Part shown: piece after piece, positions 14,322-32,462 of the stretch
Layout: each line of letters opens with the position of its first letter
Position numbering within the stretch: the first letter of the stretch is position 1
Assembly: GCA_946886565.1 (NCBI GenBank)
Contig: CAMPIX010000013.1
Span: 1-64,000 of the forward strand
Reading direction: 5' to 3'
From: an uncultured Altererythrobacter sp.
Lineage (GTDB): Bacteria > Pseudomonadota > Alphaproteobacteria > Sphingomonadales > Sphingomonadaceae
DNA length: 64,000 bases
The notes under the pieces: model-generated
What the model saw: the letters and a program-made list of their open reading frames with translations, nothing else
Databases searched by the model: none
Told to the model about the DNA's origin: nothing
Position numbers and translations under genes: made by a program

Positions 14322-15478
14322 CGGAACAGACCCACCACGCCGTTCTTCAGCCGCTGCCAGTCGTTCGCCTTCGCCACGTCCTCGCCCGCCACCAGCGGCA
14401 CGCGCGACGTCGGCATTCCATCGACAGCGATCTCCAGTTCGGCGACGCGCTCGCCCTCCTCAAGCGGAGCCTCGAGCGGGCCATCGTAGCGGATCGTCAG
14501 CTTCGGCCGCGCGCTCGAACCTTCCCGCAGCGTCGCGCCGATCGGCCCCGCGGCGACCAGCGGCACGGTGCTGCGCGCGCCTTCCTGCACCAGCGCCTCG
14601 CCGACATAGCCGCCGCGCGGGTAGAGCTTCATGGTGTCGAACGCGTCGAAGCCCCATTCGATCATCGCGATCGAAGCGCGGTTGCGGTCGCGCGGGGTAG
14701 GCGCGGTCGCCGCCACCATCACCAGGCGGCGGCCGTCTCGCTCCGCGCTACCGAGGAAGCCGTAGCCGGCCTGATTGGTGAAGCCGGTCTTGATCCCGTC
14801 CGCGCCCTCGACTCTGCCGGTGATCGGATCGTGGTTCGCCTGCGCGATACCGCGATACTCCATCCCCTCGCGCCCGAAATAGAAATCGTAGAGCCGCGGA
14901 TGGCGAGCGATCATCTCGCGTGCGAGCAGCGCGAGGTCCGCCGCCGTCGTGAAGGTGCGCCCTTCGTCCATCCATCCGTTAGGCGTCCCGAAGTGGCTGT
15001 CGTTCATGCCGATCTCGCGCGCCTTGGCGTTCATCAGCGAGACCCAATTCTCGACCGAGCCGGCCGCACCTTCTGCCAGCACGATCGCGGCGTCGTTGGC
15101 CGAGACGCTGGTGATGCCGAGCAGCAACGTCTCGACCGTCACCGGCGCGCTCCTGTCGAGGAACATCCGCGAGCCCTTGCCGTGCCATTCGCGGTAAGCC
15201 TGCTCGCTCATCGTGTAGGATTGTCCGGGCGATAGCTTGCCCTCGTCCATCAACTCGAACGCCAGGAACGCGGTCATCACCTTGGTGATCGAAGCGGGCA
15301 TGAAGCGCCGGTCCGCCTCGCGCGCGAACAGCGTCTGGCCCGATGAAAGATCGACGAGCAGCGCGATCGGCGCGCCGGGGAACGGAACGACCTTCTCGGG
15401 GGGCGGATTGGCTCCGCCCGCAGCGGCGGCGAGCGCCATACCGGGGACGATCGGCAGATAGCGAAGTAAACGGATCAA
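14318..15478 (-). CDS. dacC: D-alanyl-D-alanine carboxypeptidase (DacC/PBP5 family)
   Basis: A 386-residue serine peptidase of the low-molecular-weight penicillin-binding proteins, trimming peptidoglycan pentapeptides in the periplasm. Catalytic motifs are SITK (Ser63, Lys66), SAN (126-128) and KTG (230-232). A PBP5-type C-terminal beta domain follows (about 290-380). The start is TTG 15478 with GGGAG seven bases upstream; the next ATG, 14 codons in, would cut the signal sequence short. The signal peptide covers about the first 23 residues. The C-terminus ends with an amphipathic segment (LKNGVVGLFR) of the membrane-attachment kind. It follows an RlpA-like gene and a lytic transglycosylase in a wall-remodelling cluster. 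Confidence 0.93.
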   Translation of the reverse strand: MIRLLRYLPIVPGMALAAAAGGANPPPEKVVPFPGAPIALLVDLSSGQTLFAREADRRFMPASITKVMTAFLAFELMDEGKLSPGQSYTMSEQAYREWHGKGSRMFLDRSAPVTVETLLLGITSVSANDAAIVLAEGAAGSVENWVSLMNAKAREIGMNDSHFGTPNGWMDEGRTFTTAADLALLAREMIARHPRLYDFYFGREGMEYRGIAQANHDPITGRVEGADGIKTGFTNQAGYGFLGSAERDGRRLVMVAATAPTPRDRNRASIAMIEWGFDAFDTMKLYPRGGYVGEALVQEGARSTVPLVAAGPIGATLREGSSARPKLTIRYDGPLEAPLEEGERVAELEIAVDGMPTSRVPLVAGEDVAKANDWQRLKNGVVGLFR

Positions 15479-15511
15479 TTGCGCTCCCGCCGCCGGGCGG
15501 GAGCCGGCGGA

Positions 15512-16516
15512 TCAACCTGCGGTGGATACTTTCGCGTCGCTATAACCGGCGGCGCGGACCTTGGCGAGCGCGGCTTCAGCCTGTCCACGGCTGGTGTAGG
15601 GGCCGGTGCGGACGCGGTAATATCGGCCTGCGCGGTCGATAAATCCGCCGAGCGCTTCGGCCGCGCGCTCGGCGTTCGCCTCGCTCGCGAAGGTCGCCGC
15701 TTGAACGACGAACTCTCCGCCTGGCGACGATGCGGTGGCAGGGTGGACCGGGCTGGAGGCTGCCGGTTGGGGTGATGCAGCCGTGCTCAGCGGTGCGAGG
15801 GCGTAATCTTCGGCCGGGGCACGCTCGGGAACCGGTGGAAGAGGAACGGACGCGATAGCCGAGGTGGCGATATCTGCTGAGGCCGGCTGCCCCGCCAACT
15901 GCACACCGGAAGGCACCGGCGCCTGGCGCGCGTCGGCGAGACTGGCCGAGCCGTCCTTGGGCAACTTGCGCCGCAACACTCCAAGCAGTGTTTCAGGCGT
16001 GTCCATGCGGAGCGGAGCGGTACGGTCGGCGCGCAGATCGGCGCGCTGTATTTCGGGCGGATTGACCCGGCGCACGCGCACCGGTGTCCCCTCGCCCGCT
16101 CCGAGCTGCGCCTGCGCGTCGGGCGACAAACCAACCACGCGCGCGTTCGTCATCGGCCCGCGCCGTTCGACCCGCGCGAGAATGGTGCGCCCGCTGTCGA
16201 GCGAAGTCACCTCGACATAGCTCGGCAGCGGCAGCGTCTTGTGCGATACGGTGACGCCCGGTCCGGCCTCGGCGTCGAGCGTCGCATAACCGACCTCGTC
16301 GTGGTTCATCGCGTCGGAGGGGGTGTATTCGACGCCATCGATCGTGAAGGGCTCGCCCAGGACCATTGGGTAATCCGCCGCAGGGCCGTTGGCCGGCAAC
16401 GCCAGCGATGCGGCCGCCGCGGGACGATCTGCGCCGCCCACCAGCCCGCAGCCGGCGAGCGCCACGCTCAGGACGAGCGCGCAGGCTCCACGAAACAGGT
16501 CACCGGACGATCTCAT
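15512..16516 (-). CDS. rlpA: RlpA-like lipoprotein with SPOR domain
   Basis: A 334-residue septal-ring lipoprotein. The signal sequence ends in a lipobox LAGC within the first 25 residues. A double-psi beta-barrel follows, with ASYY-like GVEYTPSDAMNHDEVGYAT and GRTILARVERRGPM, then a Pro/Ala-rich linker and a C-terminal SPOR domain (EFVVQAATFASEANAERAA, YYRVRTGPY) that binds denuded glycan. RlpA proteins cleave or organise such strands at division sites. I chose ATG 16516; a GTG at 16534 would add six residues. Both overlap the end of mltB. The barrel's usual Asp/His active residues are not clearly aligned, so enzymatic activity is uncertain. Confidence 0.85.
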   Translation of the reverse strand: MRSSGDLFRGACALVLSVALAGCGLVGGADRPAAAASLALPANGPAADYPMVLGEPFTIDGVEYTPSDAMNHDEVGYATLDAEAGPGVTVSHKTLPLPSYVEVTSLDSGRTILARVERRGPMTNARVVGLSPDAQAQLGAGEGTPVRVRRVNPPEIQRADLRADRTAPLRMDTPETLLGVLRRKLPKDGSASLADARQAPVPSGVQLAGQPASADIATSAIASVPLPPVPERAPAEDYALAPLSTAASPQPAASSPVHPATASSPGGEFVVQAATFASEANAERAAEALGGFIDRAGRYYRVRTGPYTSRGQAEAALAKVRAAGYSDAKVSTAG

Positions 16517-17525
16517 CTGCCAAAAGCCCCACACTCATCGCGTAGTAGTTCGAGCAGTTGTATTCGAGGATAACCCTATAATTTGCCGTTAAGAGCCAGG
16601 CCGGCGCGCCCGGTCCGTCGGGCTGGAACAGCGAGGCCATGACGTCATCGTCCAGAGGGATTTGCGGCTGCACGCCGATTTCGCGCCATTCGCCCACCGT
16701 CTTCCACTGGCTGTGCCGCTCGTGCACGCGATGGCACACCGGCGAGGTGATCTTGTTGTCGACCGCGGCCCAGTCGAACCCGCCCGGCACCGAGGCGCGC
16801 ACGCCCCACGGCTGCCCCTTCCTCCAGCCTGCGTCGCGGAAGTAGTTGGCGATCGAGGCGAGCGTGTCGGCATCGTTGCTGAAGATGTTCGCGCGTCCGT
16901 CGCCATCGCCGTCGGTCGCGAGGCGCAGGTACACGCTCGGCAGGAACTGCGGGTTGCCGAAGGCGCCCGCCCAACTCCCTTGCAATTGAGAGCGCGGATA
17001 GCCCTTGTCGGCGACCTTGAGCAGCGCGACGAACTCGCCCGAGAACAGCTCACGCCGCCGCCCTTCCCACGCGAGCGTCGCGAGGGCCTGCGCGAGATCG
17101 AACCCGCCGGTTACCGCGCCATACGCGGTCTCATGCCCCCAGATTGCGACCATGATCTCTCCAGGCACGCCGTACTCGCGCTCGAGCGCGCGGATCGTGC
17201 CGAGCGACGAGGAATAGGCGCGCCGGCCGCCATTGATCCGTGCGGCATCGACGTGTCGGTCGATGTAGGAACTCAGCGGCGGATAACCGCTGCCCGGAGA
17301 CGAGGATCCCGGCTGCCCGCGGTCGAGCTCGATCACCCGCTCGCTCGGTTCGAGCCCCTGCGTCATGCGCGAGATCGTCGCCTCGCTGACGCCTTCGGCA
17401 CGTGCCCGTGCGATCAGGAGCTGTAGATATGAGTCGAACGGCATGTCCTGCGCTGCGACGGGTGCGACGGGGGTGAACGTGGCCGCCGAAGCGAGGGCGA
17501 TGGAGAGGATGGCGCGCTTGATCAT
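16500..17525 (-). CDS. mltB: lytic murein transglycosylase B family
   Basis: A 341-residue periplasmic lytic transglycosylase of the MltB (SLT_2) family. A Sec signal peptide ends at VAAQ (about 26). The catalytic glutamate lies in IWGHETAYG as Glu132; GSWAGAFGNPQFLPSVYL and the metal-loop-like DGDGDGRANIF are family signatures. These enzymes cleave the glycan backbone with formation of 1,6-anhydro-MurNAc. The protein is not a lipoprotein, so it is probably soluble in the periplasm. It is the first gene of the run that continues through rlpA, dacC, tmk, holB, metG and tatD. Confidence 0.93.
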   Translation of the reverse strand: MIKRAILSIALASAATFTPVAPVAAQDMPFDSYLQLLIARARAEGVSEATISRMTQGLEPSERVIELDRGQPGSSSPGSGYPPLSSYIDRHVDAARINGGRRAYSSSLGTIRALEREYGVPGEIMVAIWGHETAYGAVTGGFDLAQALATLAWEGRRRELFSGEFVALLKVADKGYPRSQLQGSWAGAFGNPQFLPSVYLRLATDGDGDGRANIFSNDADTLASIANYFRDAGWRKGQPWGVRASVPGGFDWAAVDNKITSPVCHRVHERHSQWKTVGEWREIGVQPQIPLDDDVMASLFQPDGPGAPAWLLTANYRVILEYNCSNYYAMSVGLLADEIVR

Positions 17526-17646: not shown

Positions 17647-17736
17647 GGACAGGTGGCCGAGTGGTTTAAGGCAGCGGTCTTGAAAACCGCCGTGGGTTCA
17701 CGCCCACCGTGGGTTCGAATCCCACCCTGTCCGCCA
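17647..17736 (+). tRNA. tRNA-Ser (anticodon TGA)
   Basis: A 90-base tRNA with acceptor arms GGACAGG (17647-17653) and CCTGTCC (17726-17732), discriminator G and encoded CCA. The anticodon loop reads CTTGAAA, giving TGA for serine. A long variable arm with the GTGGG / CCCAC pairing is present, as required for class II tRNA-Ser. The T-arm contains GGTTCGAATCC. Its 3' end lies only five bases from the stop codon of the oppositely oriented CHAT gene. Confidence 0.97.
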
Positions 17737-17741
17737 GTTCC

Positions 17742-20700
17742 TCACTCGGCTTCGCGCCGTGCCGCGATTGCCCCGTCGCCGACGATGGCGAAGGCGGCCC
17801 AGTAGAATGGGTGGGAGGTTTCGGCCTGGTTCATCAGGTCGATCTGCGAGCGACGCAGCGCCTCGGCGGTTTCGACACCCCGCTCGTCGAACAGGCCGAC
17901 GATAAGCCGCTGGGTCGCGTCGTAATCGTCCGGCACGGGCCAGTGGCTCGCGAGCACCGTGCGCCCGCCAGCGCCGACGAAGGCGCGCACCAGCCCGTCG
18001 AGCGCGAATTCGCCGCCGCCGCTCAGGCCCGCTTCCTGCGTCGCGCCGACGGTCGCGCTGCCCGCGGTGTCGCACGCCGACAGAATCACCAGATTGGCAT
18101 CTATATCCATCTGGAAGATCTCCGCGAACGACAGCAGCCCGTCCGAATCGCCTGCGCCGAACGAGGTCAGGAGCGCCGGGCGCGGCGGGCAGCCGGGCTC
18201 TGGCGCGGTGACAAGTCCGTGCGTGGCGAAGTGGAGGATGCGGTATTCGTCGAGCCGGGGCATTGCGAGCAGCGCAGTATCGGTGAATTCCTGCCCGGTG
18301 AGCACGGCGGTTTCGGCTCCGCTGCTCGACAGCCGCCCGGCGACCGTGCGCAGTTCGTCCGCAGCGATCGGATTGTTCCAGATCGCCGGCGCCCAGGTAC
18401 AGTTCGTCCCGCCCGCGAGCGCCGAGCGGACGTTGCTCGGATCGGCGACCGACTCGCTGATCGGTACGTTCTGGCCGAAACCAGCATAGGCCATCGAGGC
18501 GGAGGATGTCGGTGCGTTGCGTATATCGCGGAACGCTGCGGGCGAGACGGCGGTGCTGACCTCGACCTCGCGGCCGAGCCAGGCGGTCTCGCGGAAGTCG
18601 TACGGGTCGGCGTCGGGCGATGCCTGGCGCGCGGCGTAGCGCTCGATGCTGGCGTCATCCGTCACGAGCAGATTGATCGGCAGGCGCAGCATCGCTCCGT
18701 CGGGCTCGAACACGACATGCTCGAGGCCCGGCAGGCGCTCGGCCACGGGCGCGAACAGCAAGACGTAAAGCTCGCGCGCGGCGGCGAGGTCGAACGGGAA
18801 AGTCACGATCTCACCGTTTTCGGTGACCGCGATGCTGGCGCGCAGCTTGTCGACCGTACGTTCGAGTTCCAGCGGAGTGGCATCGACCTCGTAGGCCATG
18901 GTTTCGCCCGGGGTCGCGTAGATCATGTAGGCGCTGTTCTCGAGCGTAACCAGCTTCACGTAAGCCTCGCCTTCGCGCAGCAGGCCTTGCATGTCGGCCA
19001 GATTGACACGCCGGTCGGATACCACGCGATAGCGGGGATACTCGGCAAGCTGCTGTTGCAGCTCGGCCTGTTCGACCAGCAATCCTTCGAGCAGCGTACG
19101 CTTTTCGGCGATCGCCGCGGCGACCTCGGGCGGCTGTTCGGCGGCGGACGCCTCTTCGAGCGCGAGCGAGGCGCGGGTGCGCTCGATCGCGCGCTGGATG
19201 TTGATCGTCTTGCGGAAGAGCTGCGAAGCCTCGTCGCTGCCGCCGGAAAGCTCGCGCGCCAGCACCGCTTGGGTCTGCGCGAGGCCGGGGCGAAGCAGAA
19301 GCTGGCTGGCGTCGAACATCCCCGCGGCGGCTTCGCTCGGGGTCTGGTTTTTCAGCAGAAGCTCGAAATAGGGGGCAAGCAAGGTGCGCAGCGCGGGGGC
19401 GGGACGGCCGTCGGAATCCGCGACGATCTCGTCGTAGAGTGCGATCGCCTCGGCGTCGCGACCCGCGCGTGCGAACAGGCCGGCGAGTTGTGCTCGCGCG
19501 CTCAGCAGCGCGGGCGAGCCGGGATAGACCGGCTCGAGCAGCCCTATGCTCTCGCGGTGGAGCGCTTCGGCGCCCGCGAGATTGCCGCTGCGTTCCTCGA
19601 TCTCGGCCAGCTCGCCGAGAACTTGCGCCCGCAGCCAGAGGATCGAGGCTACGCCCCCTCCGCGCACATCGGTCAGAGTCGCGCGAGCACGAGCGAGCGC
19701 CGCCGCCGCGTCGGCCTCGCGCCCTTCGAGGCGCATTGCGGTAGCGCGCAGGTAATCGGCCTGTCCGTCGAGCAATTGCGCGCGTTCGAGCGGGGTCAGA
19801 TCGTTCGACAATCCGCCAATTCCGCGATCGCCTTCGGCAGCAAGGCGCTCGGCAAGCTCGGGGCCGATTTCGAGGTTCGCGAGCCGTTCGTAAGCGGAGA
19901 AGTCGGCGGTGAGGGGCTGATCCAGAATCGCCAGCGCTTCGCCGGGATTGCGCCGGTTGAGGGCGTCGAGCGCCTCGTAGTTGCGCAGGAGTCGCTGGAG
20001 GACCGCGTCACCCTGCGCGGTGCCGCGGACTTGCCTGAAAATCTCTTCGGCCCGCGCGAAATTGCCAAGGTTGGACTGCACCAGCGCCTCGTTCAGGCGC
20101 GCCTCCGTCGCACCTTGCCCCGATAGGGCGTCGCCCGATCGCGCGAAGAATTCCGCCGCCTCGGCATATTCGCCGGCGTTGGCGCGGCGATAGGCTTCGG
20201 CCAGAACGGCGTTCTCGGAAATCGCGGCCGCCTGCGCCCGCGCGAAGGCCTGCGCGTCGGAGGCCTGGGTCAGAGGGATCTCCACGTTGCCGGCCACGAT
20301 CTGATCGGCTGCGAGCGAAGCCAGGCCCAGCCGCAAGGCATCGTCATAGGCGGCGATGCCGCTGGCGGCGTAGACCCGTCCGTTGGCCTCGCCGATGCGC
20401 AGGTTTCGCCGGATCACACTGTCGGGTTCGGTGCACTGGAGCGCCTCGGAGGACGGGAGCGCGCCGGGTGTTTCGAGGTTCTCGAGGGGGCGGCAATCGG
20501 CACCGCTGGCGGCGAAACGCTGCCAGCCATTCTCGCCATCCGACCGGCGCACGACCCACAGGGTCCCGATCGGGGCAGCTGCGTCGCGGCACACGATCGA
20601 ATAGCGGCGGTCGAACAGGCCGGCGCCGGGCTCGGGAGACATGATCTGCGCTTCGCACAAGCCGTTCGAACCGATCGGGAAACTGTCCCGCAGGCTCAGC

Positions 20701-20783
20701 GGTGTCTGCTGGGCCTGCACCGGAGCGGCCGCGGCAAAGATCGCGCAAAGCGCCAATGCTGCGAATGAAGCCTGGATGCGCAT
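17742..20783 (-). CDS. secreted CHAT-domain caspase-like protein with TPR-like repeats
   Basis: A 1013-residue protein with a Sec signal peptide ending at VQAQQ (about 26). The middle (about 190-480) is rich in Ala/Glu helical pairs such as RANAGEYAEAAEFFARSG and SNLGNFARAEEIFRQV, which read as TPR repeats. A coiled-coil-like stretch precedes the C-terminal CHAT domain (about 660-1005). The caspase-type dyad is intact: His855 in HFATHG and Cys904 in LSACDTAG. CHAT domains are cysteine peptidases of clan CD. It is the third gene after a transporter and its exoprotein; its ATG 20783 is four bases from the upstream stop and preceded by GGGGAG. A longer ORF from 20846 was rejected. I infer that it processes or senses the exoprotein; the substrate is unknown. 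Confidence 0.88.
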   Translation of the reverse strand: MRIQASFAALALCAIFAAAAPVQAQQTPLSLRDSFPIGSNGLCEAQIMSPEPGAGLFDRRYSIVCRDAAAPIGTLWVVRRSDGENGWQRFAASGADCRPLENLETPGALPSSEALQCTEPDSVIRRNLRIGEANGRVYAASGIAAYDDALRLGLASLAADQIVAGNVEIPLTQASDAQAFARAQAAAISENAVLAEAYRRANAGEYAEAAEFFARSGDALSGQGATEARLNEALVQSNLGNFARAEEIFRQVRGTAQGDAVLQRLLRNYEALDALNRRNPGEALAILDQPLTADFSAYERLANLEIGPELAERLAAEGDRGIGGLSNDLTPLERAQLLDGQADYLRATAMRLEGREADAAAALARARATLTDVRGGGVASILWLRAQVLGELAEIEERSGNLAGAEALHRESIGLLEPVYPGSPALLSARAQLAGLFARAGRDAEAIALYDEIVADSDGRPAPALRTLLAPYFELLLKNQTPSEAAAGMFDASQLLLRPGLAQTQAVLARELSGGSDEASQLFRKTINIQRAIERTRASLALEEASAAEQPPEVAAAIAEKRTLLEGLLVEQAELQQQLAEYPRYRVVSDRRVNLADMQGLLREGEAYVKLVTLENSAYMIYATPGETMAYEVDATPLELERTVDKLRASIAVTENGEIVTFPFDLAAARELYVLLFAPVAERLPGLEHVVFEPDGAMLRLPINLLVTDDASIERYAARQASPDADPYDFRETAWLGREVEVSTAVSPAAFRDIRNAPTSSASMAYAGFGQNVPISESVADPSNVRSALAGGTNCTWAPAIWNNPIAADELRTVAGRLSSSGAETAVLTGQEFTDTALLAMPRLDEYRILHFATHGLVTAPEPGCPPRPALLTSFGAGDSDGLLSFAEIFQMDIDANLVILSACDTAGSATVGATQEAGLSGGGEFALDGLVRAFVGAGGRTVLASHWPVPDDYDATQRLIVGLFDERGVETAEALRRSQIDLMNQAETSHPFYWAAFAIVGDGAIAARREAE

Positions 20784-20787
20784 CGAC

Positions 20788-23700
20788 CTACTCCCCGTTT
20801 TCGGCGTTGTTTTCATCGCCGTCTTCGTCGTCCTCGTCTTCCTCATCGCCGTCGCCCTCGAAGCCGTACAGCGAGCTGTCGCCGCCGCTCGCGACCGGAT
20901 CGTCGAGCACCGTGTCGTCCGTAAGCAGTGGAGTGCTGACGAGGCCGGGGAAGTCGGAGCCGAACTGGGAATCGGCCTCCTCCTCCGTGGCGATGACCGG
21001 ATCGGCCGCCGCAGCGAGAGGCGCTTCGATCACCGCCGGATTGTTGATCGGCGGAATCTCCTGTTCCGGCTCGGGTTCCGGCTCAGGTTCGTCGCACGTG
21101 CCGCCGCCGTTGATGAGGCAATCGTTGAACGCGCTGGCATCGCTGTATTCGGAGGCCGCCTCGCCCTCCCTCGAGAAGTCGACCGAATCGAAGAACGCCG
21201 CGCCGGTTACGAAGCTGCCGTCCGCATTCCGCTGGCGACCGTAGGCGAAGACGTCGATTGCCTCTCCGTCCGAACTTTGGCTGTCGGACACCTGGCCAAT
21301 GCGCAGACCGCCCTCGCCGACGAGGATTCCGCCCGGCTCGGCGCTGGTGCCGGTGTTGCGGACGTAGAGCGTCTCGCCGACGAGCAGGTCCATCGAGCCC
21401 GCCCTCAAATAGCCGAGCGGATCGTCGCTCCCTGCGGCAGCGCCCGACAACAGTTCGTCGCGGCCCGGGAAATCGGGATTCGCCCGGAGCTGATCGATGG
21501 TGGCCGCATCGGCGACCCATATGTTGTTCGAGAATATCTGGAGAATACCGGACGGATTACCCTGGGAATCGACCACGCCGATCCCGCCGGGCGTAACGAC
21601 CTCCAGCCGCTCGCCGGCGGCGATTTCCAGTACGTCCTGAGGTCCGGCGTCGATGTATGCCAGCACCCCTTCCACACGCGCGGTTCCTTCGGTGAACAAT
21701 CCGACTTGCGAGACGCCGTCGTCCTGACTGCCGGTGATCGTAAGATCGCGGATCAGGACGTCGGGCACGTCCCCGGAAGCGTCGCTCAAGCGAGGAGCGG
21801 AGAAAAACACGCTGTCCGCCTCGATCCGTGAGGCCTCGTCCTGAGTCAGCGTGTAGCCATCCTCTTCGGCGTCGCCGCCGAGAACTGCTGTATTGTCCGT
21901 ATCGAGCGACTGCAGCACGACCGAGAGCGCGCCGATGCGCGAACCGGACCCGATATCGAGCTCGCGCGAGGTCAGCGAAAGCGACGCGCCGCCAAAGCTG
22001 ATCAGATTGTCGTCATTGCCCGCGGTGCGGATCGCGCCGTCGGACGTGAAGGCCAGATTCGCGGTGGGTTGCTGCGGATTGGGATCGCCGACGACATTGC
22101 CGTCGAGCGCCGTGATCTCGATATCCCCCGACGACTGGACGTTTGCCGCGCCGGTGATGAAGATGTTGCCACCGATTGCGGACAGTGCGCCCGTCGCGCC
22201 GCCACCCGACGCCGTCGAGTCGATCGACAGATTGCCGATGTTCGCCACCCCGAGGCTGGTCTGGATGAGGAATCCGCCCGCCATGTTCGTGGTTGCGCCG
22301 GTGGCGCCGGTCGCGAGCGAAAGGCTGCCGGTTTCGAGCCCCGGCTCGCCCGGAACGAATGCGAGGGTCGAGAACTGCTCCTCTTCTTCGCTCGCTTCGC
22401 CGAGAAACACGACCGCGCTGCCGCCGGTTGCCGCTTCGCCGTTTTGAGCCTCGGCGGTCGCGGCAAGTGTCACACTTTCGGCCGTGATCACGGCGTCGCC
22501 CAGGATCGACAGTTCGGACGCCCCACCGGTGGCGGTTCCGCCCTGCGAAACGGCGCTGGCGACAATCTCGAGAGCGGTGAGGTTCAGCGTCGCCGCGCCC
22601 GCAAGCTCTGCCTGGGCGAAGCCACCGAGAGCCGAACCGCCCGCTGCGAGGGCGCTTATCGTCGTAGCGTCGGTCACGGTCATCGTGCCGCCGTCGACTT
22701 CGAGCTCCGCTTCGCCTGCCGAAGCGCCGCCGACCGACGCTCCACCGCCTCCGATCGCGTCGGCGTCGATCGACGTGACGACGCCGCTGTAGCTCGAGTC
22801 GTTGACCGTCAGCGTCGCGAGACCGGCCGTCGCCGCGCCGCCGCTACCGGTGGTCCCCACGCCTCCCGTGGCGCGTGCCGAAACGATCAGTTGTGCCAGA
22901 CCGGCGGCATCGGGAGCGATGTTTAGAATGCCTCCGTTGTCGACGAGCACGCGTGCGGTGCCGCCGATGGCATCGCCGCCGTTGACGCCATTGCCGCCGG
23001 TCGGCTGTCCGACGAACACATTGCTGCCCACCAGGTTCGCGGTCGCTCCGTCGACTGTCAGAGTTGCGTCGCCGCCCGTCGCGTCGCCGCCGTCGCCGGT
23101 CCCCGAGCCGTTGCCGCCGACACCGCCCGACACGCCGCCGACGAAGCTGGCGTTGAGAGTCCCGCCATTCTCTACGATCACGATCCGCTGGCCGCCCGCG
23201 GCGTTGCCGCCTGCAATGTTGGCGTCGGCATTGCTGCTCGAACCGCCCTGCGAGAACGCGCTGAACACGGTCGGACCGGTCGACAGGGTGCCGCCTGAAA
23301 CGCGCATCTGCAGAAGTCCGCCCTGCGCATCTCCTGCGGCGGTGCCGTCGGCGCTGCTGCCGCCCCCGAAGCCACGCGCAGTGAAGATGTTGAAGGACAG
23401 CGGACCCGGATCTTGCGGAAACACGACCGCGGCGCCGTCGAGCGATTCGATCGAGGACGTGCCACCCGCACCGCGACCCGCGTTGCCGCCGCCATCGATC
23501 GTGATATCGCCGCCGGTGCCGTTCGCAGCGACGATCGAGTTACGATTGAACACATCGACTGTCGAGCTGGTGACGTTGTCGAGAACGGTAATCGTGGTTT
23601 CGGTTCCCGATGCCGAAACGAGCGCATTGCCGCCCAGGCCGTCGCCGGCAGCCGATCCGCTGCCGCCCTTGGCGCCAGCGCTGACCTGTGCGCTTTGAAG

Positions 23701-26622
23701 CTGCACCGCAGCGCCCCCTTGCGCGACGAGTGCGGCAGTGCCGCCGGTCGCCGCACCGGCCGACGCGCCGAGCTCGGTTACGTCACCCCCGCGCGCATTG
23801 GCTTCTAGTGTCGCGAGCCCTCCACTGGTAAAGTTGCCGCCGTTGACCGTCAGGCGAGACGTGCCACTGGTCGCCGCACCGCCGAGTTGTCCCCCGGCCC
23901 CTCCCGATGCGAACGATGACACTGTGAGCGCATCGGTTATGCCGATCGCGCCGCCATCGACGTCGAGGGTCGCCTCGCCGCCGATTGCGGCGCCTCCCGA
24001 ACCCGCAGTTCCGGTGCCGAGACCGCCGAAGGCATCGACAGTGCCGGTAAGCGCGGCGAGCCCGACGTCGGCGCCGCCCGCTTCGACCCTGAACACGCCT
24101 CCATTCGCCGCTCCGGCGAGATTTCCCGCACCGCCGCCAGCATTCGCCGTCAGCAGGACCGCCCCGGCTGTCACTTGAGAATTGAGACGCGCGGTGAGGA
24201 AAGTCGCACCGCCGGTGCCAGCGCCCCCATTGCCATCGAGATCTTCGGTCGTGCCGCCCGATCCGCCGGCGCCCCCGATACCATCCGATGCCGCGGCGAC
24301 GTTGCCGAACGATGCGCTGCCAAGCCCGACCGAACCATCGCCCCCGGCAAAATAGGTTCCGACCTGAGTGGTGCCGCCCGATCCCGTACCGCCATCTCCG
24401 CCAGCCTGACCTAGCCCGCCATTGCCGCCCTGACCGCCGATACCGAATGAAGCGAGCGAAAGATTGCCCAGGATCAGCCTGCCACGATCAGCCCCAGCGA
24501 GAACGAAGGCCCCACCGGTCTCGCCATCGAACAGACCGCCGGCGCCGCCGCCGCCTCTGCCGGCCGCAATCGAGCCATCCCCGTCGCCGCCGACGCCGCC
24601 GACGCCGGAATTGTCGAGATTGACGCTACCCGCGGCGAGCGTGGCGGCTTCGGTGAGGCTCCCATCGGCCTGTACGAAAGCCAGCCCGCCGGTGGCATCG
24701 CCGCCGTCGCCGCCCACGCCGAGGTCCGAATTCCCTCCCGTCGCAGAGGCGAGCGCCGTTATGGTGCCGGTTATCGAAATATCGCCTGCGATCGCTACAA
24801 CGCCCGCCTGCCCGCCTGTCGCGTCGCCGCCGCCCTGGCCGTTGCCGCCGATGGCGAGGGCAGACACCAGTACGTCGCCACCGACGGACGCCGCCCCGCC
24901 ATCGAAAACCGCGATGCGCGCAATGCCGCCGAATGCGTTGGCGCCCGATTGGGTACTGAACGGATCGAGGTTGTCGCCTCCGACCGCGCTGGCGTCGAGA
25001 TAGGCGGATCCGCCTATCTCGACGAGCGAGCCTGCGCCGACGAAAATCTCGGACATCCCGCCGATCGATTCCACCGATCCGCCACTCGAGAACGGTTGGC
25101 CGAAGCTGAGCACGTCCGCCGTACCGCCGATCGTTACCCTACCGCCGTTCAACGCGCCGATCTGCGCGAGCCCACCCGTGACTGTGGTCGGCGACGCCTC
25201 CGGCACGACGATGTTCGTTGCCGCATCCACGAGGGCGGAACCGCCGATATCGATCGTACCGCCGTCGGTATAGATGATCGCCGTACCGCCGATCGTGGCC
25301 CCAGTCTGTATGACCGAACCGTCTTCCAGGGTCACGTTTCCGGTGATGTCGACCGACGACCCGGCAAAGGCTTCCAGCCGGACGTTGCCCCCTGTCGATA
25401 CCCCGTTCGCGAAGGTGTCTCTCGCCGCCATGTCGAGGTCGCCGGCGACATTCGCGCTGAAACCGTTGAACGCCTGAAACAGAACCTGCTCGTTGGCGCG
25501 CAGGATTGCGCCATCGGCGATCGACACGTCGCCCGCTTGCGCGCTTACAAACAGATTGCGGGTGGCGTCTGCATTGAGCGACGAATTCAGCGCGGCATTG
25601 TCGATCACGATGTCGGCGGGCACCGAACTGCCGAAGGCCTCGATCGTGCGGCCGAACACGTTCCGGCCGGCCGACAGGATGATGTCGCCGTTGTCCATTC
25701 CCACGGTTTGCGCCGTGGCGAAGCCGAGATTGCCGCCGAGCAACATCTGGATCGGCGTCTGGTTCGGCGTCGCGACGACGTAGATCACATGGTTGTCGGC
25801 CGAGCCGGTGCTGGCCGGCCCGGTGGTGGTGCCGGTGTGGGTCACCGCGTCGGGCACGCTGGTGCCGACCGGCACCACGATATCGAACAGCCCGTTCGAG
25901 AAAGTCATGCTGACCTGCTCGCCCGCGACGTAGGCGGTTGCGCCGTTGACGGTCGAGGTTCCGCCCATGTCGATGAAAGGCGCCACGACGGCGAAGAAGC
26001 TGCCTTCCTGCGCGGCGAGGATTTGTGCGCCGGGCTGGATGGTGACACCGGTGGTCTGCCCGCTCGTCCCGAACAGGTCCAGCGCGCCACCGGCGGCGAA
26101 CTCGACGAAGCTGGCGAGATCGGGATCGAGCGTGGTGAGCAACAGATTGCCGACGTCGAACGCGGCAGTCGGCCCGACAAGGATACCGGTCGGCGAATAG
26201 AACGCGATCGAACCGCCGGGCGAAAAGCCGCCGCTCGCGTTCTGCAGGCGCGTGATGACCGTGCCATCGAACACGGTAACGTCGCCATTGGGCGACGGCA
26301 GGATCCGATTGAGCACGACGAACCCTCCGGCGCCGGGCAGATCCTGATAAGTGGCGGTGTTGCCCGCGGGCAGGAACGTGAGCGCCTCGCCCTGCTGCCC
26401 GAGGATGGGCTGCCAGTCGATCACTGCCGTATCGGTCTGCACGGTGATCGTGTCCTGCCCGATCACCGTGCGGTCGATGTTGGCGCTGCCATCGACCACA
26501 GTGGGTGTGGCGTTGAATGCCTGTGCGGCTGCGGGTTGCGGAGTCAGCGCGAGCGCCGCGGCCATGGCGGCGCAAGCGGTTCCCTGGAGCAGCTTGGTGC
26601 GGTTCGGGTTGCGGGCGACCAT
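20788..26622 (-). CDS. filamentous-hemagglutinin-like two-partner-secretion exoprotein (TpsA)
   Basis: A 1944-residue exported protein. A signal peptide ending near AAAQA is followed by a TPS/haemagglutination-activity domain (about 30-260) with LNRILPSPNGDVTVFDGTV and FYSPTGILVG, the counterparts of the NPNG-type motifs. The body (about 400-1500) is a very long Gly/Ala/Thr-rich beta-helix-like region with recurring GGxATGG and VxxGG units. A later region (about 1500-1850) is less repetitive, and the last ~25 residues are almost entirely Asp, Glu and Asn. ATG 26622 is preceded by GGAGG at seven bases and lies one base after the transporter stop. It is probably threaded through that transporter to the surface. 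The adhesin role is inferred; no toxin domain is visible. Confidence 0.88.
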   Translation of the reverse strand: MVARNPNRTKLLQGTACAAMAAALALTPQPAAAQAFNATPTVVDGSANIDRTVIGQDTITVQTDTAVIDWQPILGQQGEALTFLPAGNTATYQDLPGAGGFVVLNRILPSPNGDVTVFDGTVITRLQNASGGFSPGGSIAFYSPTGILVGPTAAFDVGNLLLTTLDPDLASFVEFAAGGALDLFGTSGQTTGVTIQPGAQILAAQEGSFFAVVAPFIDMGGTSTVNGATAYVAGEQVSMTFSNGLFDIVVPVGTSVPDAVTHTGTTTGPASTGSADNHVIYVVATPNQTPIQMLLGGNLGFATAQTVGMDNGDIILSAGRNVFGRTIEAFGSSVPADIVIDNAALNSSLNADATRNLFVSAQAGDVSIADGAILRANEQVLFQAFNGFSANVAGDLDMAARDTFANGVSTGGNVRLEAFAGSSVDITGNVTLEDGSVIQTGATIGGTAIIYTDGGTIDIGGSALVDAATNIVVPEASPTTVTGGLAQIGALNGGRVTIGGTADVLSFGQPFSSGGSVESIGGMSEIFVGAGSLVEIGGSAYLDASAVGGDNLDPFSTQSGANAFGGIARIAVFDGGAASVGGDVLVSALAIGGNGQGGGDATGGQAGVVAIAGDISITGTITALASATGGNSDLGVGGDGGDATGGLAFVQADGSLTEAATLAAGSVNLDNSGVGGVGGDGDGSIAAGRGGGGAGGLFDGETGGAFVLAGADRGRLILGNLSLASFGIGGQGGNGGLGQAGGDGGTGSGGTTQVGTYFAGGDGSVGLGSASFGNVAAASDGIGGAGGSGGTTEDLDGNGGAGTGGATFLTARLNSQVTAGAVLLTANAGGGAGNLAGAANGGVFRVEAGGADVGLAALTGTVDAFGGLGTGTAGSGGAAIGGEATLDVDGGAIGITDALTVSSFASGGAGGQLGGAATSGTSRLTVNGGNFTSGGLATLEANARGGDVTELGASAGAATGGTAALVAQGGAAVQLQSAQVSAGAKGGSGSAAGDGLGGNALVSASGTETTITVLDNVTSSTVDVFNRNSIVAANGTGGDITIDGGGNAGRGAGGTSSIESLDGAAVVFPQDPGPLSFNIFTARGFGGGSSADGTAAGDAQGGLLQMRVSGGTLSTGPTVFSAFSQGGSSSNADANIAGGNAAGGQRIVIVENGGTLNASFVGGVSGGVGGNGSGTGDGGDATGGDATLTVDGATANLVGSNVFVGQPTGGNGVNGGDAIGGTARVLVDNGGILNIAPDAAGLAQLIVSARATGGVGTTGSGGAATAGLATLTVNDSSYSGVVTSIDADAIGGGGASVGGASAGEAELEVDGGTMTVTDATTISALAAGGSALGGFAQAELAGAATLNLTALEIVASAVSQGGTATGGASELSILGDAVITAESVTLAATAEAQNGEAATGGSAVVFLGEASEEEEQFSTLAFVPGEPGLETGSLSLATGATGATTNMAGGFLIQTSLGVANIGNLSIDSTASGGGATGALSAIGGNIFITGAANVQSSGDIEITALDGNVVGDPNPQQPTANLAFTSDGAIRTAGNDDNLISFGGASLSLTSRELDIGSGSRIGALSVVLQSLDTDNTAVLGGDAEEDGYTLTQDEASRIEADSVFFSAPRLSDASGDVPDVLIRDLTITGSQDDGVSQVGLFTEGTARVEGVLAYIDAGPQDVLEIAAGERLEVVTPGGIGVVDSQGNPSGILQIFSNNIWVADAATIDQLRANPDFPGRDELLSGAAAGSDDPLGYLRAGSMDLLVGETLYVRNTGTSAEPGGILVGEGGLRIGQVSDSQSSDGEAIDVFAYGRQRNADGSFVTGAAFFDSVDFSREGEAASEYSDASAFNDCLINGGGTCDEPEPEPEPEQEIPPINNPAVIEAPLAAAADPVIATEEEADSQFGSDFPGLVSTPLLTDDTVLDDPVASGGDSSLYGFEGDGDEEDEDDEDGDENNAENGE

Positions 26623-26623
26623 G

Positions 26624-28462
26624 TCAGTACCTCCAGGGAAGCAGGCGGGTGGTGATCGAGAACAGCACGCGGACGTCGCCGCGCGAGCCTTGGAAATCGG
26701 TCGTTTCGAGCGGGATCGCGAGCGAGAGGTCGGCCTGCATCCGCGCGCCCCAGGCGGCGCGCACGCCCGCGCCGGCGGACCACAGCTTGTCCGGATTGAG
26801 CGGCCGCCGGCTCGGATCCTCGTTCCACGCCCAGGCGGCGTCGGTGAAGACGTAGGGCTGGAGCGCAAACGAGTCGGCTGTCTTGGGCGCGAGCGTACCG
26901 TAACGCATCTCGAGCGAGAGCCCGACGCCGCTGTCCCCGATCACGATGCCCGGGTCGTAGCCCCGCCCGATCGAATAGTTGCCCGCCGCGAACTCCTCGA
27001 ACGCGGGCAGCGGATCGTCGGTGAACTGGCCGTCCGCGCGCAGGACGAAGGCGATGTCCGGCACCGGGCGATACTCGCCCAGCGCGTCGAAGCGGATCGA
27101 AAGCGGCGTAGGATCGGCTTCGATCCGGCTCGGCGGGATCGCCGCGCCGGTGATGCACGCGAGCGGGGACGGGCGGCAGTCGGGGCTCGAATCGAACACG
27201 TCGAGTCCCTGGCGGACCTCGACCGAGCCGCCGAGCCTGCTTCGCGGCTCGAACTGCGTATATCCGCCGAGCCGGGACACACTGTCGCGGTCGATCCATT
27301 CGCCACCAATCCGCGCAAACACCGTGCGCACGCGGTCGCGGGTAAGCTCGATCGAGTTCACCTCGACATCCTGATCGACGTAATCGAACCCGAGATTGCC
27401 GAGGATCGTGGCCTCGCGCGAACGGCGCAGGGGATAGCTCGCGATCAGGTTGGCGAACAGCGTTTCCGACTCGAGATCGAAGTTCGCGATGCCGAGGTCG
27501 GGCTCGGTCCAGCTATAGGTGAACTGACCGCCGATCTTGAGTCCTTCGGAGCCCACGCGGAACTCGTGGCCGAGCTGGACCGTCTGCTGCTCGTCGAAGT
27601 CCGCAGTGGAGAACAGCGCGAGCGAGGTGCGGTCGCCGGTTCCGATCAGGTCGTAGACTTCAGCGCGCAGAAGGCCGCCGACCCGGCCAATCGCCTTCGA
27701 GCCGAAGTTCTGCACGTTGAAGTCGATCGCTCCGCGCCGGCGCACGACGGCGATTTCCCCCACCAGATCGCCGGGCGCACCGCCCGCGGCGGGGCGCAGC
27801 GAGAGACGCACGTCCACGCCCGGCAAGTCATCCGCAAGCAACAGATAGCGCTCGGCCTCGTAGGTGTTGAACACGGGCTGCCCGACCAGATTCTCGAGAT
27901 AGCCGGCGACCAGCTGTTCGGATGGGCCGGCTTCGCCGCGCACGCGCAGCGCGGTCAGCCGACCGAACACGATCCGCAGTTCGGCCTCGCCGTTGCTGAG
28001 GCGTTGCTCGGGAATTTCGACCGTGGCGAGATAGCCCGCCTGCTGGAGGATCGAGGCGGCCTGTGCGCGAATGTCGCACAGTACCGAGATCGGCAGATCG
28101 CGGCCCAGATACTCGTCGTAGGCCGGCGCGAGCGAGACGCCGGGAGCGGCTTCTGCACCCGTGAAGCGCACCGAGTTCAGGGTCACGCGGATGGACTGGT
28201 AATCCGGGCGGTCGAGCGCGCAAGGAAGCCGCTCCATCTCCCCATCGATGGTGAGCGTGACGCCTTCGCGATCGAGCTGGCGCGCTTCTGGCGGCAGCAG
28301 TTCCTCGCGCGTAGGGGGGGACACTTGCGGCGCAGTCTGCGCCGATACCGACGTCGCCAGGCCGGCGCCTGCCAGAATTGCCGACGCCGTCGACGCGAAC
28401 AGCAAACGACGAACCGCGCCGGCACCGGCGCACGACGACAGGCTGCTATGGTTGCGCACCAC
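26624..28462 (-). CDS. FhaC/ShlB-family outer-membrane transporter (TpsB)
   Basis: A 612-residue outer-membrane protein. A signal peptide ends at SVSAQ (about 42). Two POTRA domains follow: about 90-162 (LNSVRFTGAEA, ASILQQAGYLATVEIPEQ) and about 162-243. The rest (about 245-612) is a 16-strand-type barrel with IDFNVQNFGSKAIGR, YSIGRGYDPG and VFTDAAWAWN, which match the ShlB/FhaC signature regions, and it ends in an aromatic residue (LLPWRY). It exports the exoprotein encoded one base downstream. I chose GTG 28462 with GGGGGA six bases upstream; a longer frame to 28516 gives a poor signal peptide. It heads the transporter-exoprotein-CHAT operon. Confidence 0.92.
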   Translation of the reverse strand: MVRNHSSLSSCAGAGAVRRLLFASTASAILAGAGLATSVSAQTAPQVSPPTREELLPPEARQLDREGVTLTIDGEMERLPCALDRPDYQSIRVTLNSVRFTGAEAAPGVSLAPAYDEYLGRDLPISVLCDIRAQAASILQQAGYLATVEIPEQRLSNGEAELRIVFGRLTALRVRGEAGPSEQLVAGYLENLVGQPVFNTYEAERYLLLADDLPGVDVRLSLRPAAGGAPGDLVGEIAVVRRRGAIDFNVQNFGSKAIGRVGGLLRAEVYDLIGTGDRTSLALFSTADFDEQQTVQLGHEFRVGSEGLKIGGQFTYSWTEPDLGIANFDLESETLFANLIASYPLRRSREATILGNLGFDYVDQDVEVNSIELTRDRVRTVFARIGGEWIDRDSVSRLGGYTQFEPRSRLGGSVEVRQGLDVFDSSPDCRPSPLACITGAAIPPSRIEADPTPLSIRFDALGEYRPVPDIAFVLRADGQFTDDPLPAFEEFAAGNYSIGRGYDPGIVIGDSGVGLSLEMRYGTLAPKTADSFALQPYVFTDAAWAWNEDPSRRPLNPDKLWSAGAGVRAAWGARMQADLSLAIPLETTDFQGSRGDVRVLFSITTRLLPWRY

Positions 28463-28465
28463 TGA

Positions 28466-28690
28466 TTTCCCCCTTCGACACCGCCCATGCCCAGGGCGAT
28501 TCCCCTTCCGGAACACCGGAATTCGTATTCGATTTTCTCAGAGGGTGGGTGTGATCGATGTCACAACCAAATTGCACGAGCGCCCCTCGGACGACCCTGA
28601 CTTATTGTTTGCGCGGATGATACGACGCGCGGGGCATTAATCAAGCGGCTAAACTTGTTTGGGTTTTGCAGCGAAACCCGAGCATGCGGC
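28466..28690. other. intergenic region upstream of the two-partner operon
   Basis: Apart from the CRP-type site and the transporter ribosome-binding site, this gap holds a 6-bp inverted repeat GGGTTT / AAACCC at 28661-28666 and 28674-28679. That repeat could form an RNA hairpin after the small ORF but lacks a T-run. No further gene is visible. Confidence 0.5.
28550..28565. promoter_or_regulatory. perfect CRP-type operator (TGTGA-N6-TCACA)
   Basis: TGTGATCGATGTCACA at 28550-28565 matches the CRP consensus half-sites TGTGA and TCACA with the correct six-base spacer. Its centre is about 95 bases upstream of the transporter GTG. A weak -10-like GAATACGAAT at about 28521-28530 would place the site near -41, a class II activator position. 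A CRP/FNR-family protein is the likely ligand. Confidence 0.65.
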
Positions 28691-28925: not shown

Positions 28926-29654
28926 TCAGGCCTGCAGCGCGTGACGGCGAAGTGCCTCGTAGTCCTCACGGCAAGCCTCCACCACCTCGCGGTAGGCCCC
29001 CTCGAGCCGGGGTGGCGGGCCCGGCAGCGCACCGAAGCCGGTCGAGGCGTTTACCTTGTCGTACCAGTGCGCGCCCCACACGCCGTCCTCCGGATGCGGC
29101 CCGCGCTCCCAGCGCAGCATTGCCGGGTCCCAGTCGATTCCCAGCGCGGCGCACAAGCGGGTGAGCACGGCCGCAGGATCGGCGAGGATATCGTCGGAGT
29201 CCACGACCGGGGGCGTGCGCCCCGAACGTTCGGTTTCGTGCTCGAAATAGTCGCGCAGTTGCGCAAAGCCGAGCATTTCGGGACGGCGCAATTCGTTCTT
29301 CGCCGCGTAGCTCGCCACCACGCGTTCGGGCGCGCGGATGAGGAAGGCGTGGCGGTGGCCGGGCATGTCGGCGATGCGGACCGGGCCGACCATATGGTGC
29401 GGCATGTGCTTCTGATACCAGACCGGCTCGCCGCCGGGCGCTTCGCCCGACTGTGTTGCGAGCACCGAGCGCCAGCCGCAATCCATATCCGCGATCGTCT
29501 CGGCCGCCATCGGATGCGGTTCGCCGGTCTCCTTCAGGAACGCGCCGTAGAACGGCTCGTCGGACACCGCACAATCGCTCCGTGCGCCGAAACTCCGCAT
29601 CATCGCGGTCGAGATGTTGCGCGGGCCCGACCACATGGCGATGCGGATCGTCAC
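28926..29654 (-). CDS. sulfotransferase family protein
   Basis: A 242-residue protein with the nucleotide-fold opening IRIAMWSGPRNISTAMMRSF, matching the 5'-phosphosulfate-binding P-loop-like motif of PAPS-dependent sulfotransferases. AFLIRAPERVVASY resembles the 3'-phosphate-binding RxPxxxxxSY segment. The probable substrate is a small molecule; it cannot be named from sequence. GTG 29654 overlaps the stop of the aminotransferase gene (GTGA), so the two are probably co-translated and may act on the same compound. No signal peptide is present. Confidence 0.82.
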   Translation of the reverse strand: MTIRIAMWSGPRNISTAMMRSFGARSDCAVSDEPFYGAFLKETGEPHPMAAETIADMDCGWRSVLATQSGEAPGGEPVWYQKHMPHHMVGPVRIADMPGHRHAFLIRAPERVVASYAAKNELRRPEMLGFAQLRDYFEHETERSGRTPPVVDSDDILADPAAVLTRLCAALGIDWDPAMLRWERGPHPEDGVWGAHWYDKVNASTGFGALPGPPPRLEGAYREVVEACREDYEALRRHALQA

Positions 29655-30577
29655 GGCCGCGCCCTCCCCTTCACGTCGTCGGCAAGCCGTTCGAGATAGA
29701 GGCCCTGCAACCGCTCGACCATCGGCCCGCGTTCGGTGCCGAGCACCCGCCCATCGACCGAACCGACCGGCGCGACCCCGGCGAAAGTGCCGGTGGTGAA
29801 GGCCTCGTCCGCGCCATAGACGTGGGTGAGCGAGAAGTTGCGCTCGAATACCGAGATGCCCGCCGCGCGCGCGACCTCGATCACCACGCCGCGGGTGATC
29901 CCGTCGAGGCAATAATCGCCGCTCGAGGTCCAGATCGCGCCGTCCCTGACGATGAAGAAGTGGGTCGAATTGCAGGTCGCGACGAAGCCGTGCGGGTCGA
30001 GCATCAACCCCTCGTCCGCTCCGGCCTGCGCCGCCTGGATGCAGGCGGTGATGCAGTTCAGCTTCGAATGCGAGTTGAGCATCGGGTCCTGTACGTCGGG
30101 ATAGCCGCGGCGGACGTGGACAGTGAACAGGCTCAGCATCCGCGTTGCGGTCTCGGGCGCGGGTTCCTTCCATTCGGGGATGATGACGATCGTCGCCGGG
30201 GTCACCACCACGCGCGGGTCCTGATAGGGCGTCGAGCGCACCCCGCGCGTCACCATCAGGCGGATGTGGACGCCGTCTCCGGTCATGCCGTTCGCGTCGA
30301 GCACCGCGTAGAGCCGCCGTTCCAGTTCCTCCCGCGAAATGCCGATATCCATGAGGATCGCCTTCGCGCCGCGCCACAGCCGGTCGAGGTGGCGGTCGAG
30401 GAAGGCGAGCCGCCCGTGGTGCAGCCGGATCCCCTCCCACACCCCGTCGCCGAGCATGAAGCCGCTGTCGAACACGCTGACTTTCGCCTCGGCGCGCGGA
30501 AAGTGCTCGCCGTTGACGTCGATCAGGATCGCTTCGTTGCGCGGGTCCGGAACGTAGTTGTGCGTGCCCTTGGCCAT
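29651..30577 (-). CDS. class IV aminotransferase (branched-chain / D-amino acid type)
   Basis: A 308-residue PLP enzyme of fold type IV. FDSGFMLGDGVWEGIRL is the characteristic N-terminal segment, Lys172 in NSHSKLNCI is the PLP-binding lysine, and GITRGVVIEVARAAGI and EAFTTGTFAGVAPV complete the cofactor pocket. The family contains branched-chain aminotransferases, D-amino-acid aminotransferases and aminodeoxychorismate lyase. I favour a branched-chain-like activity because of length and the SKLN sequence, but cannot separate them safely. Four bases separate it from the KefB gene upstream, and the sulfotransferase overlaps it downstream. Confidence 0.85.
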   Translation of the reverse strand: MAKGTHNYVPDPRNEAILIDVNGEHFPRAEAKVSVFDSGFMLGDGVWEGIRLHHGRLAFLDRHLDRLWRGAKAILMDIGISREELERRLYAVLDANGMTGDGVHIRLMVTRGVRSTPYQDPRVVVTPATIVIIPEWKEPAPETATRMLSLFTVHVRRGYPDVQDPMLNSHSKLNCITACIQAAQAGADEGLMLDPHGFVATCNSTHFFIVRDGAIWTSSGDYCLDGITRGVVIEVARAAGISVFERNFSLTHVYGADEAFTTGTFAGVAPVGSVDGRVLGTERGPMVERLQGLYLERLADDVKGRARP

Positions 30578-30581
30578 CGGT

Positions 30582-32438: not shown

Positions 32439-32462
32439 CTCGCCCTCCCCTGCCAGGCGGCG

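Follow-up and report, generated by a model that had tools for sequence, protein, structure and literature searches.

A conserved C-terminal tag on giant two-partner secretion exoproteins tracks a neighboring gene for an apparently exported TPR-CHAT protein

Giant proteins exported by two-partner secretion (TPS) systems are widespread; to our knowledge, the handling of the last part of such a protein is known in detail for few systems, chiefly FhaB. Why, then, would a TPS operon encode a caspase-like protein of the CHAT family next to the exporter and the exoprotein, and on what would this protein act? The question is raised by an operon in the 64,000-nucleotide stretch (hereafter, the window) that spans positions 1 to 64,000 of contig CAMPIX010000013.1 (assembly GCA_946886565.1) from an uncultured Altererythrobacter sp. 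of the order Sphingomonadales. The operon includes three genes, and the exoprotein carries a short tag close to its C-terminus:

26624..28462, minus strand: first gene, TpsB-type outer-membrane transporter (POTRA_2 and ShlB barrel), 612 aa, GTG start
20788..26622, minus strand: TpsA-type exoprotein, Gly/Ala-rich, 1944 aa (open reading frame (ORF), composition, TPS domain via profile-profile match)
17742..20783, minus strand: exported-looking TPR-CHAT protein, 1013 aa (ORF, Pfam, homologue alignments)
20866..20904, minus strand: C-terminal tag of the exoprotein, residues 1907-1919 (DDPVASGGDSSLY), located from conserved C-ends

At the level of gene content, TpsB, TpsA and the apparently exported TPR-CHAT protein make up a conserved set; the C-end of TpsA carries the tag, in most cases preceded by a pair of cysteines, and the presence of the tag tracks the CHAT gene. 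These comparisons suggest that the CHAT protease recognizes the tag and in this way processes or monitors the exoprotein, and we favor the reading, with a probability of roughly 0.55, that the operon encodes a two-partner (type Vb) secretion system in which the CHAT protein serves as a dedicated third component and would process, release or monitor the tagged TpsA.

The tag, the CHAT gene and their shared inheritance

The consensus of the tag is roughly DEPVTGAGNxxLW/Y, with the core E/D-P-V-T-G/S-x-G-N/D-x-x-L-W/Y. Across 15 relatives, the residues of DDPVASGGDSSLY are conserved at 0.73 to 1.0, with one at 0.33, as opposed to the variable rest of the exoprotein (identity of 0.31 to 0.37 to the window protein over residues 331-1650). 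The tag was first spotted by reading the C-ends and the initial counts are therefore post hoc: a regular expression for the tag matches 56 of 64 CHAT-linked C-ends (the window and contig-end fragments counted) and none of the 9 exoproteins that are not beside CHAT, against a background of 2 matches in 1845 other ORFs and 7 in 1458 further 90-residue segments within the same exoproteins.

A 25-position tag profile (A3) was then run in a six-frame search against 396 genomes of the window's order, 111 of which encode the CHAT subfamily as defined by a dedicated profile (A2, E<1e-200). At E<=1e-3, the tag is present in 101 of these 111 genomes and in none of the 285 others (Fisher p = 2.5e-83). 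Relaxing the threshold to E<=0.01 yields 111 genomes, including 6 that lack the CHAT subfamily, where all the matches are weak (E of 0.004-0.008) and fall in ORFs of 42-777 aa. With two candidates scored per genome, there are at least 128 CHAT places (L126 and L127 are further copies), and 115 of the 128 listed have a same-strand tag within 25 kb: 36-159 bases upstream of the CHAT match in 59 cases and 9.4-19.3 kb downstream in 56.

A held-out test employed a 12-position matrix built from 20 tags of the order and scored on the last 60 residues of non-training exoproteins. At a shuffle p<=0.05, the tag is detected in 22 of 30 CHAT-adjacent exoproteins vs 1 of 21 that are not beside CHAT (Mann-Whitney p = 1.9e-8), and the sole match among the latter (L112) is chance-like. 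The 21 are the complete exoproteins from 50 regions around ShlB without a nearby CHAT. Of the other regions, L188 turned out to carry CHAT and was counted as CHAT-adjacent, L194 is decayed, and in the rest no exoprotein was complete or clearly paired; the genomes of two of the 21 (L112 and L179) have the CHAT subfamily elsewhere. Five loci sampled at the class level (L145, L146, L149, L152 and L153) share a recurring tag form, G-N-E-x-L-W. We also observed one tagged TpsA of 2622 aa (L125) without CHAT or TpsB over 9.6 kb upstream and 2.4 kb downstream, in a genome with a CHAT operon elsewhere.

The gene set itself is conserved. At E<=0.001, 676 of 7994 scored candidates are homologues of the CHAT protein. 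The first-pass annotation had noted three adjacent genes on one strand and asked whether CHAT accompanies the transporter-exoprotein pair in relatives; among the best 80 of 517 CHAT relatives (one genome per species scanned), TpsA and/or TpsB lie beside CHAT in 72 loci, and the other 8 are near contig ends, 3 of these (L019, L024 and L025) retaining a tagged exoprotein tail. The gene order is TpsB-TpsA-CHAT (class A, that of the window) in 48 of the 80 loci, TpsA-CHAT with TpsB out of view in 8, and CHAT-(two genes or none)-TpsB(-TpsA) (class B) in 16. Judging by this recurrence, the arrangement of exporter, exoprotein and CHAT is not due to chance. A sample of 385 genomes at the class level yielded CHAT proteins more distant than those of the window's own order; in 14 of these loci (L145-L158, with L158 being the Niveispirillum locus L124), a large Gly-rich ORF lies directly 5' of CHAT in 13 cases and TpsB is in view in 9. 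Among 11 plasmid regions around CHAT matches, 5 have a TPS gene beside CHAT: those from Sphingobium (L121), Sphingomonas parapaucimobilis (L123) and Niveispirillum (L124), a Nostoc ATCC 53789 plasmid with a filamentous hemagglutinin (FHA)-ShlB-CHAT trio (L199) and an Anabaena cylindrica plasmid with an FHA-CHAT pair (L200). By annotation, the other 6, including Pseudosulfitobacter and Azospirillum, have no TPS gene beside CHAT. The annotation had proposed a search for such trios in Sphingomonadales and cyanobacteria; they also exist in other Alphaproteobacteria and on a plasmid of Nostoc. Long ORFs that seemed to join CHAT to a TPS protein were considered and rejected: L148 is an artefact of overlapping frames, the start of CHAT lying within the long ORF, and L084, L085 and L086 have no ShlB within 30 kb. 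No TpsA-CHAT fusion was found among the four long CHAT ORFs examined.

The tag is portable, being also present on secreted-looking mini-proteins of about 110 aa, outside TPS proteins. One tag match falls in a 106-aa ORF of genome G323 (L128:10019-10336) in which an N-end resembling a signal peptide is followed by a Pro-rich linker and then the tag. A protein search identified 14 such mini-proteins (P0244-P0257; 104-127 aa; E of 2.8e-62 to 1.4e-5), counting the query's own database entry, which belongs to Parasphingopyxis sp. CP4, a member of the Sphingomonadales. The sequence IDDPVTGFGNE-x-LW is invariant in all 14, save for x, which is A, S or T. The mini-proteins contain no TPS part and look Sec-exported; they are rare, with a strong match in G323 alone among 94 genomes, and G323 is the only genome that shows the CHAT subfamily, a tagged giant exoprotein and a mini-protein.

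A short C-terminal tag common to giant exoproteins and unrelated mini-proteins, together with a cysteine peptidase of gingipain-like fold such as PorU, brings to mind C-terminal sorting, whereby CHAT would cut at the tag and, as a transpeptidase, attach the exoprotein to the envelope in the manner of PorU or sortase. We regard this explanation as highly improbable: by eye, the tag is followed by a short acidic or hydrophilic end instead of a hydrophobic or transmembrane helix and a basic tail, most loci have a single substrate, and no acceptor is known.

Another alternative concerns the exporter. In known TPS systems, TpsA tethering elements are located at the C-end, HMW1 being an example, and this is where the window exoprotein carries both the tag and a pair of cysteines; the protein has only one other cysteine, in the signal region:

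21094..21120, minus strand: cysteine pair Cys1835/Cys1843 of the exoprotein (cysteine positions)

Among CHAT-linked exoproteins, 44 of 58 from the window's order and 20 of 24 held-out ones have the pattern C-x(5-12)-C within 150 aa of the C-terminus. The class-B exoproteins of L081-L083 have a further pair of cysteines after the tag, at the extreme C-end. The tag could accordingly serve export or anchoring together with TpsB, with CHAT being an envelope quality-control protease that merely travels with the operon, and the co-inheritance of TpsB, tag and CHAT across most of the TpsB tree is compatible with such a role. (The tree was midpoint-rooted, with tag states taken from the matrix labels and with L155, L165 and L179 left out.) However, seven exporters not beside CHAT (L171, L172, L180, L184, L186, L187 and L189) nest within the CHAT-bearing part of this tree, on starred branches, and their exoproteins lack the tag although the exporters are kin; the tagged mini-proteins, too, carry the tag without any TPS part. 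We therefore consider an export or anchoring element unlikely. Among 11 genomes that have exporters not beside CHAT and lack the CHAT subfamily, PF12770 is absent in 9 and partial in 2. One of the latter two contains a decayed locus (L194) with a 60-residue CHAT remnant by a truncated TpsB, and no exoprotein gene was seen there.

Several observations weigh against a dedicated CHAT component that acts on the tagged TpsA. Because CHAT-linked proteins were used to train the tag profile, its sensitivity (101 of 111 genomes) is partly circular; the absence of the tag from CHAT-less genomes is free of this circularity. There is no tag in reach in 13 of the 128 listed CHAT places: 5 of these have sub-threshold variant tags (L133, L134, L137, L139 and L140), 3 have TpsB beside CHAT and TpsA out of view (L131, L135 and L141), one has a cyclase and a small gene only, with neither TpsB nor TpsA (L138), and the remaining ones run into a contig or region end or have a weak tag. 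In the held-out test, 8 of the 30 CHAT-adjacent TpsA have no significant tag (L123, L124, L148, L150, L151, L154, L156 and L162), with degenerate forms discernible by eye at the C-ends of L123, L162, L150 and L151. The two cyanobacterial TpsA (L199 and L200) end in another motif, F-V-x-x-G-x-G-G-[IL]-P-x-S-P, which, judging from two sequences, is perhaps a parallel tag. The cysteine pair is not exclusive to the CHAT-linked proteins: 14 of the 58 exoproteins of the order lack it, and 7 of 18 exoproteins that are not beside CHAT have one. Furthermore, not every CHAT gene comes with a TPS pair. Among 147 sampled genomes of the window's order, CHAT (PF12770) was detected in 45 and ShlB in 54 (E<=0.001); ShlB is within 30 kb of CHAT, always on the same strand, in 32 of 72 CHAT places and not in the other 40, and the unlinked CHATs that were opened are mostly of distant kinds. 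Finally, the TpsB tree offers only 3 independent contrasts between tag and CHAT, of which about 1.8 are concordant, a non-significant result; the apparent co-loss is thus suggestive only, and the tag and CHAT could be co-inherited without contact between the two.

The second gene order and a possible signaling branch

Class-B loci usually have a CHASE2-cyclase and a small protein inserted: the distance from CHAT to TpsB is 2.8-3.0 kb in 13 of 16 cases, and in the other 3 the genes touch. In L057, the gap encodes a CHASE2 and adenylate/guanylate cyclase protein (PF05226 and PF00211) and an exported-looking protein of about 270 aa without a Pfam match. Cyclase and small-protein-like genes also lie beside CHAT in L124, L149, L154 and L157, and a cyclase alone in L147. 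An initial label of the small protein as FecR-like was dropped, given that none of the 6 copies scanned reaches the Pfam cut-off. In Anabaena, a CHAT-CHASE2 fusion and an opposite-strand DUF928 gene are adjacent to the TpsA-CHAT pair.

A candidate regulatory site is located upstream of the first gene in the window:

28550..28565, no strand assigned: CRP-type palindrome TGTGA-N6-TCACA, possible cyclic AMP (cAMP) control

The palindrome is exact and is the sole match with at most one mismatch in the 64 kb, compared with an average of 0.64 in shuffled sequences. A relaxed pattern, which was picked after the class-B sites had been viewed, is found upstream of 11 of 18 class-B operons vs in 37 of 2243 random segments and in none of 44 TpsB-first relatives; the strict site with one mismatch is present in 6 of 16 class-B loci, 0 of 36 class-A loci and 8 of 930 random segments. 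Given its absence from all 44 TpsB-first relatives, the site was rejected as a general feature of the operon. The CHASE2-cyclase and the CRP-type sites together suggest feedback in class-B lineages.

Such feedback could be the primary function of the system: CHAT would sense the exposed tail of a stalled or excess TpsA and signal through the CHASE2-cyclase and cAMP/CRP to adjust expression, with any proteolysis hitting a regulator, as Csx29 cuts Csx30. We consider this surveillance scheme rather doubtful. Class-A operons, including that of the window, have no cyclase between the three genes, the CRP-type site is lacking in the TpsB-first relatives, the relaxed pattern for it was chosen post hoc, and the scheme leaves unexplained why the exoprotein, rather than the regulator, bears the tag.

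The three proteins and the surrounding genes

The exporter, exoprotein and CHAT genes are all open at the coordinates given above, and the spacing of 1 and then 4 nucleotides reported in the first-pass annotation holds; purine-rich sequences precede the exoprotein start (GGAGG) and the CHAT start (GGGGAG). The first gene is TpsB because its product matches Pfam POTRA_2 and ShlB, passing the cut-offs of both (PF03865, E of 2.8e-17, and PF08479, E of 3.1e-7, for ShlB and POTRA_2, respectively), which bears out its initial description as a ShlB-type transporter.

The window exoprotein shows no TPS or hemagglutinin match in the Pfam scan. A profile of its N-terminal part and that of class-A relatives matches a profile of L123, L160, L161 and L163 with an hhalign probability of 99.1% and, more weakly (94.6%), a profile of L124 and Anabaena; the PF05860 cut-off is passed by L123 (59.3 bits), L124 (87.5 bits) and Anabaena (154.2 bits). 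We assign the exoprotein to TpsA because its N-terminal profile matches profiles that include proteins passing PF05860. The earlier designation as a hemagglutinin-like adhesin expresses a family resemblance and no more. The ORFs of 58 exoproteins span 1236 to 3909 aa, lengths that may overstate the genes as they begin at the first possible codon.

The CHAT protein matches PF12770 over residues 667-1003 (E of 4e-53), with TPR matches below the cut-off, and has the following parts:

20289..20702, minus strand: N-terminal alpha/beta domain, residues 28-165, with four conserved cysteines (43, 65, 97, 117) (AlphaFold2)
19044..20255, minus strand: TPR-like helical repeats, residues 177-580 (model, sub-threshold Pfam TPR, kinesin light chain TPR match)
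17775..19001, minus strand: CHAT (caspase-like) domain, residues 595-1003 (Pfam, model, Csx29 and separase folds)
18219..18221, minus strand: codon of catalytic His855 (alignment of CHAT relatives)
18072..18074, minus strand: codon of catalytic Cys904 (alignment of CHAT relatives)

The His855/Cys904 dyad that had been described as intact is conserved across 106 aligned CHATs: His855 is present in 81 of 81 close sequences (80 loci and the window) and in 24 of 25 distant rows, and Cys904 in 81 of 81 and 25 of 25. The one distant row without His is L148, which was misframed in the alignment and has both the His and the Cys motif in its own frame. In the structural model, the CHAT domain fold matches Csx29 and separase and is gingipain-like. 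From the conserved dyad and the Csx29 fold, we infer that the protein is proteolytic. The N-terminal domain, modeled with confidence (AlphaFold2 predicted local distance difference test (pLDDT) 91.6, predicted template modeling score (pTM) 0.86), has no Pfam match in the window protein; its four cysteines are near invariant in the alignment of close and distant CHATs. A lipobox-like N-end is found in 13 of 25 distant CHATs vs 4 of 81 close ones. Export signals of all three proteins were judged by eye. With its near-invariant N-terminal cysteines and the lipobox-like ends of its relatives, the CHAT protein looks exported, either periplasmic or membrane-anchored, rather than cytoplasmic, the location that would have spoken against the first-pass proposal.

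A tRNA-Ser gene (17647-17736) adjoins the CHAT stop. Beyond it, at 14321-17525, Pfam identifies a lytic transglycosylase (SLT_2), a SPOR-domain protein and a D-Ala-D-Ala carboxypeptidase; on the upstream side of the operon, 28929-33872 encodes a sulfotransferase, a class IV aminotransferase, a Na+/H+ exchanger with TrkA-N and a pyridine nucleotide-disulphide oxidoreductase.

A possible mechanism and known systems

Under the favored reading, TpsB would export TpsA N-terminus first, leaving the C-end last in the periplasm; the TPR part of a periplasmic or membrane-anchored CHAT protein would bind the tag there, and the CHAT domain would cut nearby, releasing or maturing the exoprotein or clearing stalled chains. 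In class B, the CHASE2-cyclase and the small exported protein probably report the event to the cell via a cyclic nucleotide. The first-pass annotation had proposed a dedicated exported protease that matures, releases or guards the exoprotein: action on the exoprotein is better supported by a tag that tracks CHAT, and the choice of maturing, releasing or guarding stays as conjectural as it was. A more far-reaching proposal, which we offer tentatively, as possible rather than probable, is an undescribed protease-coupled pathway in which an exported TPR-CHAT protein reads a portable tag on giant TPS proteins and mini-proteins, processes them at the end of export and, in many lineages, informs a CHASE2-cyclase, so that the cell would count its exported surface proteins.

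Single parts of the trio are already annotated in public records; a search of the open-access literature found no report that joins the CHAT domain to two-partner secretion, filamentous hemagglutinin, ShlB, CHASE2 or Sphingomonad. New here is the conserved C-terminal tag on an otherwise variable exoprotein. A co-encoded caspase-like protease and a conserved candidate recognition tag make the question directly testable; if the favored reading is true, it would point to a function for one group of exported CHAT proteins in bacteria and provide a new C-terminal tag for annotation.

The closest parallel is FhaB/FhaC of Bordetella, likewise a TpsB and TpsA pair, with DegP, CtpA and SphB1 as proteases. 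DegP and CtpA degrade the C-terminal prodomain of FhaB in the periplasm, after which SphB1 acts at the cell surface (PMC8263021). Periplasmic proteases thus have the C-terminal part of FhaB as their substrate, and the corresponding part of the exoprotein is the likely protease substrate here. In contrast to FhaB, the present system encodes its candidate protease, a TPR-CHAT protein, within the operon, and the exoprotein bears a matching tag at its C-end. DegP, CtpA and SphB1 belong to families other than CHAT.

The TPR-CHAT fold is shared with Csx29 of type III-E CRISPR (Craspase), which is described as an endopeptidase that is activated by Cas7-11 with target RNA and makes a single cut in Csx30 (PMC10028731). 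Unlike Csx29, the CHAT protein of the window is apparently exported, has an extra N-terminal cysteine domain and is encoded with a secretion pair. With the clan CD peptidases separase and gingipain, no common substrate or context was seen, and DdvA, a transmembrane anti-sigma factor (Protein Data Bank 8rot, 8rw5), differs in being, by its title, a membrane signaling protein. Apart from the lack of a hydrophobic and basic tail after the tag and the usual presence of one giant substrate per locus, the system resembles LPXTG/sortase, PEP-CTERM/exosortase and the C-terminal domain/PorU of the type IX secretion system, in each of which a short C-terminal tag likewise tracks one dedicated cysteine peptidase.

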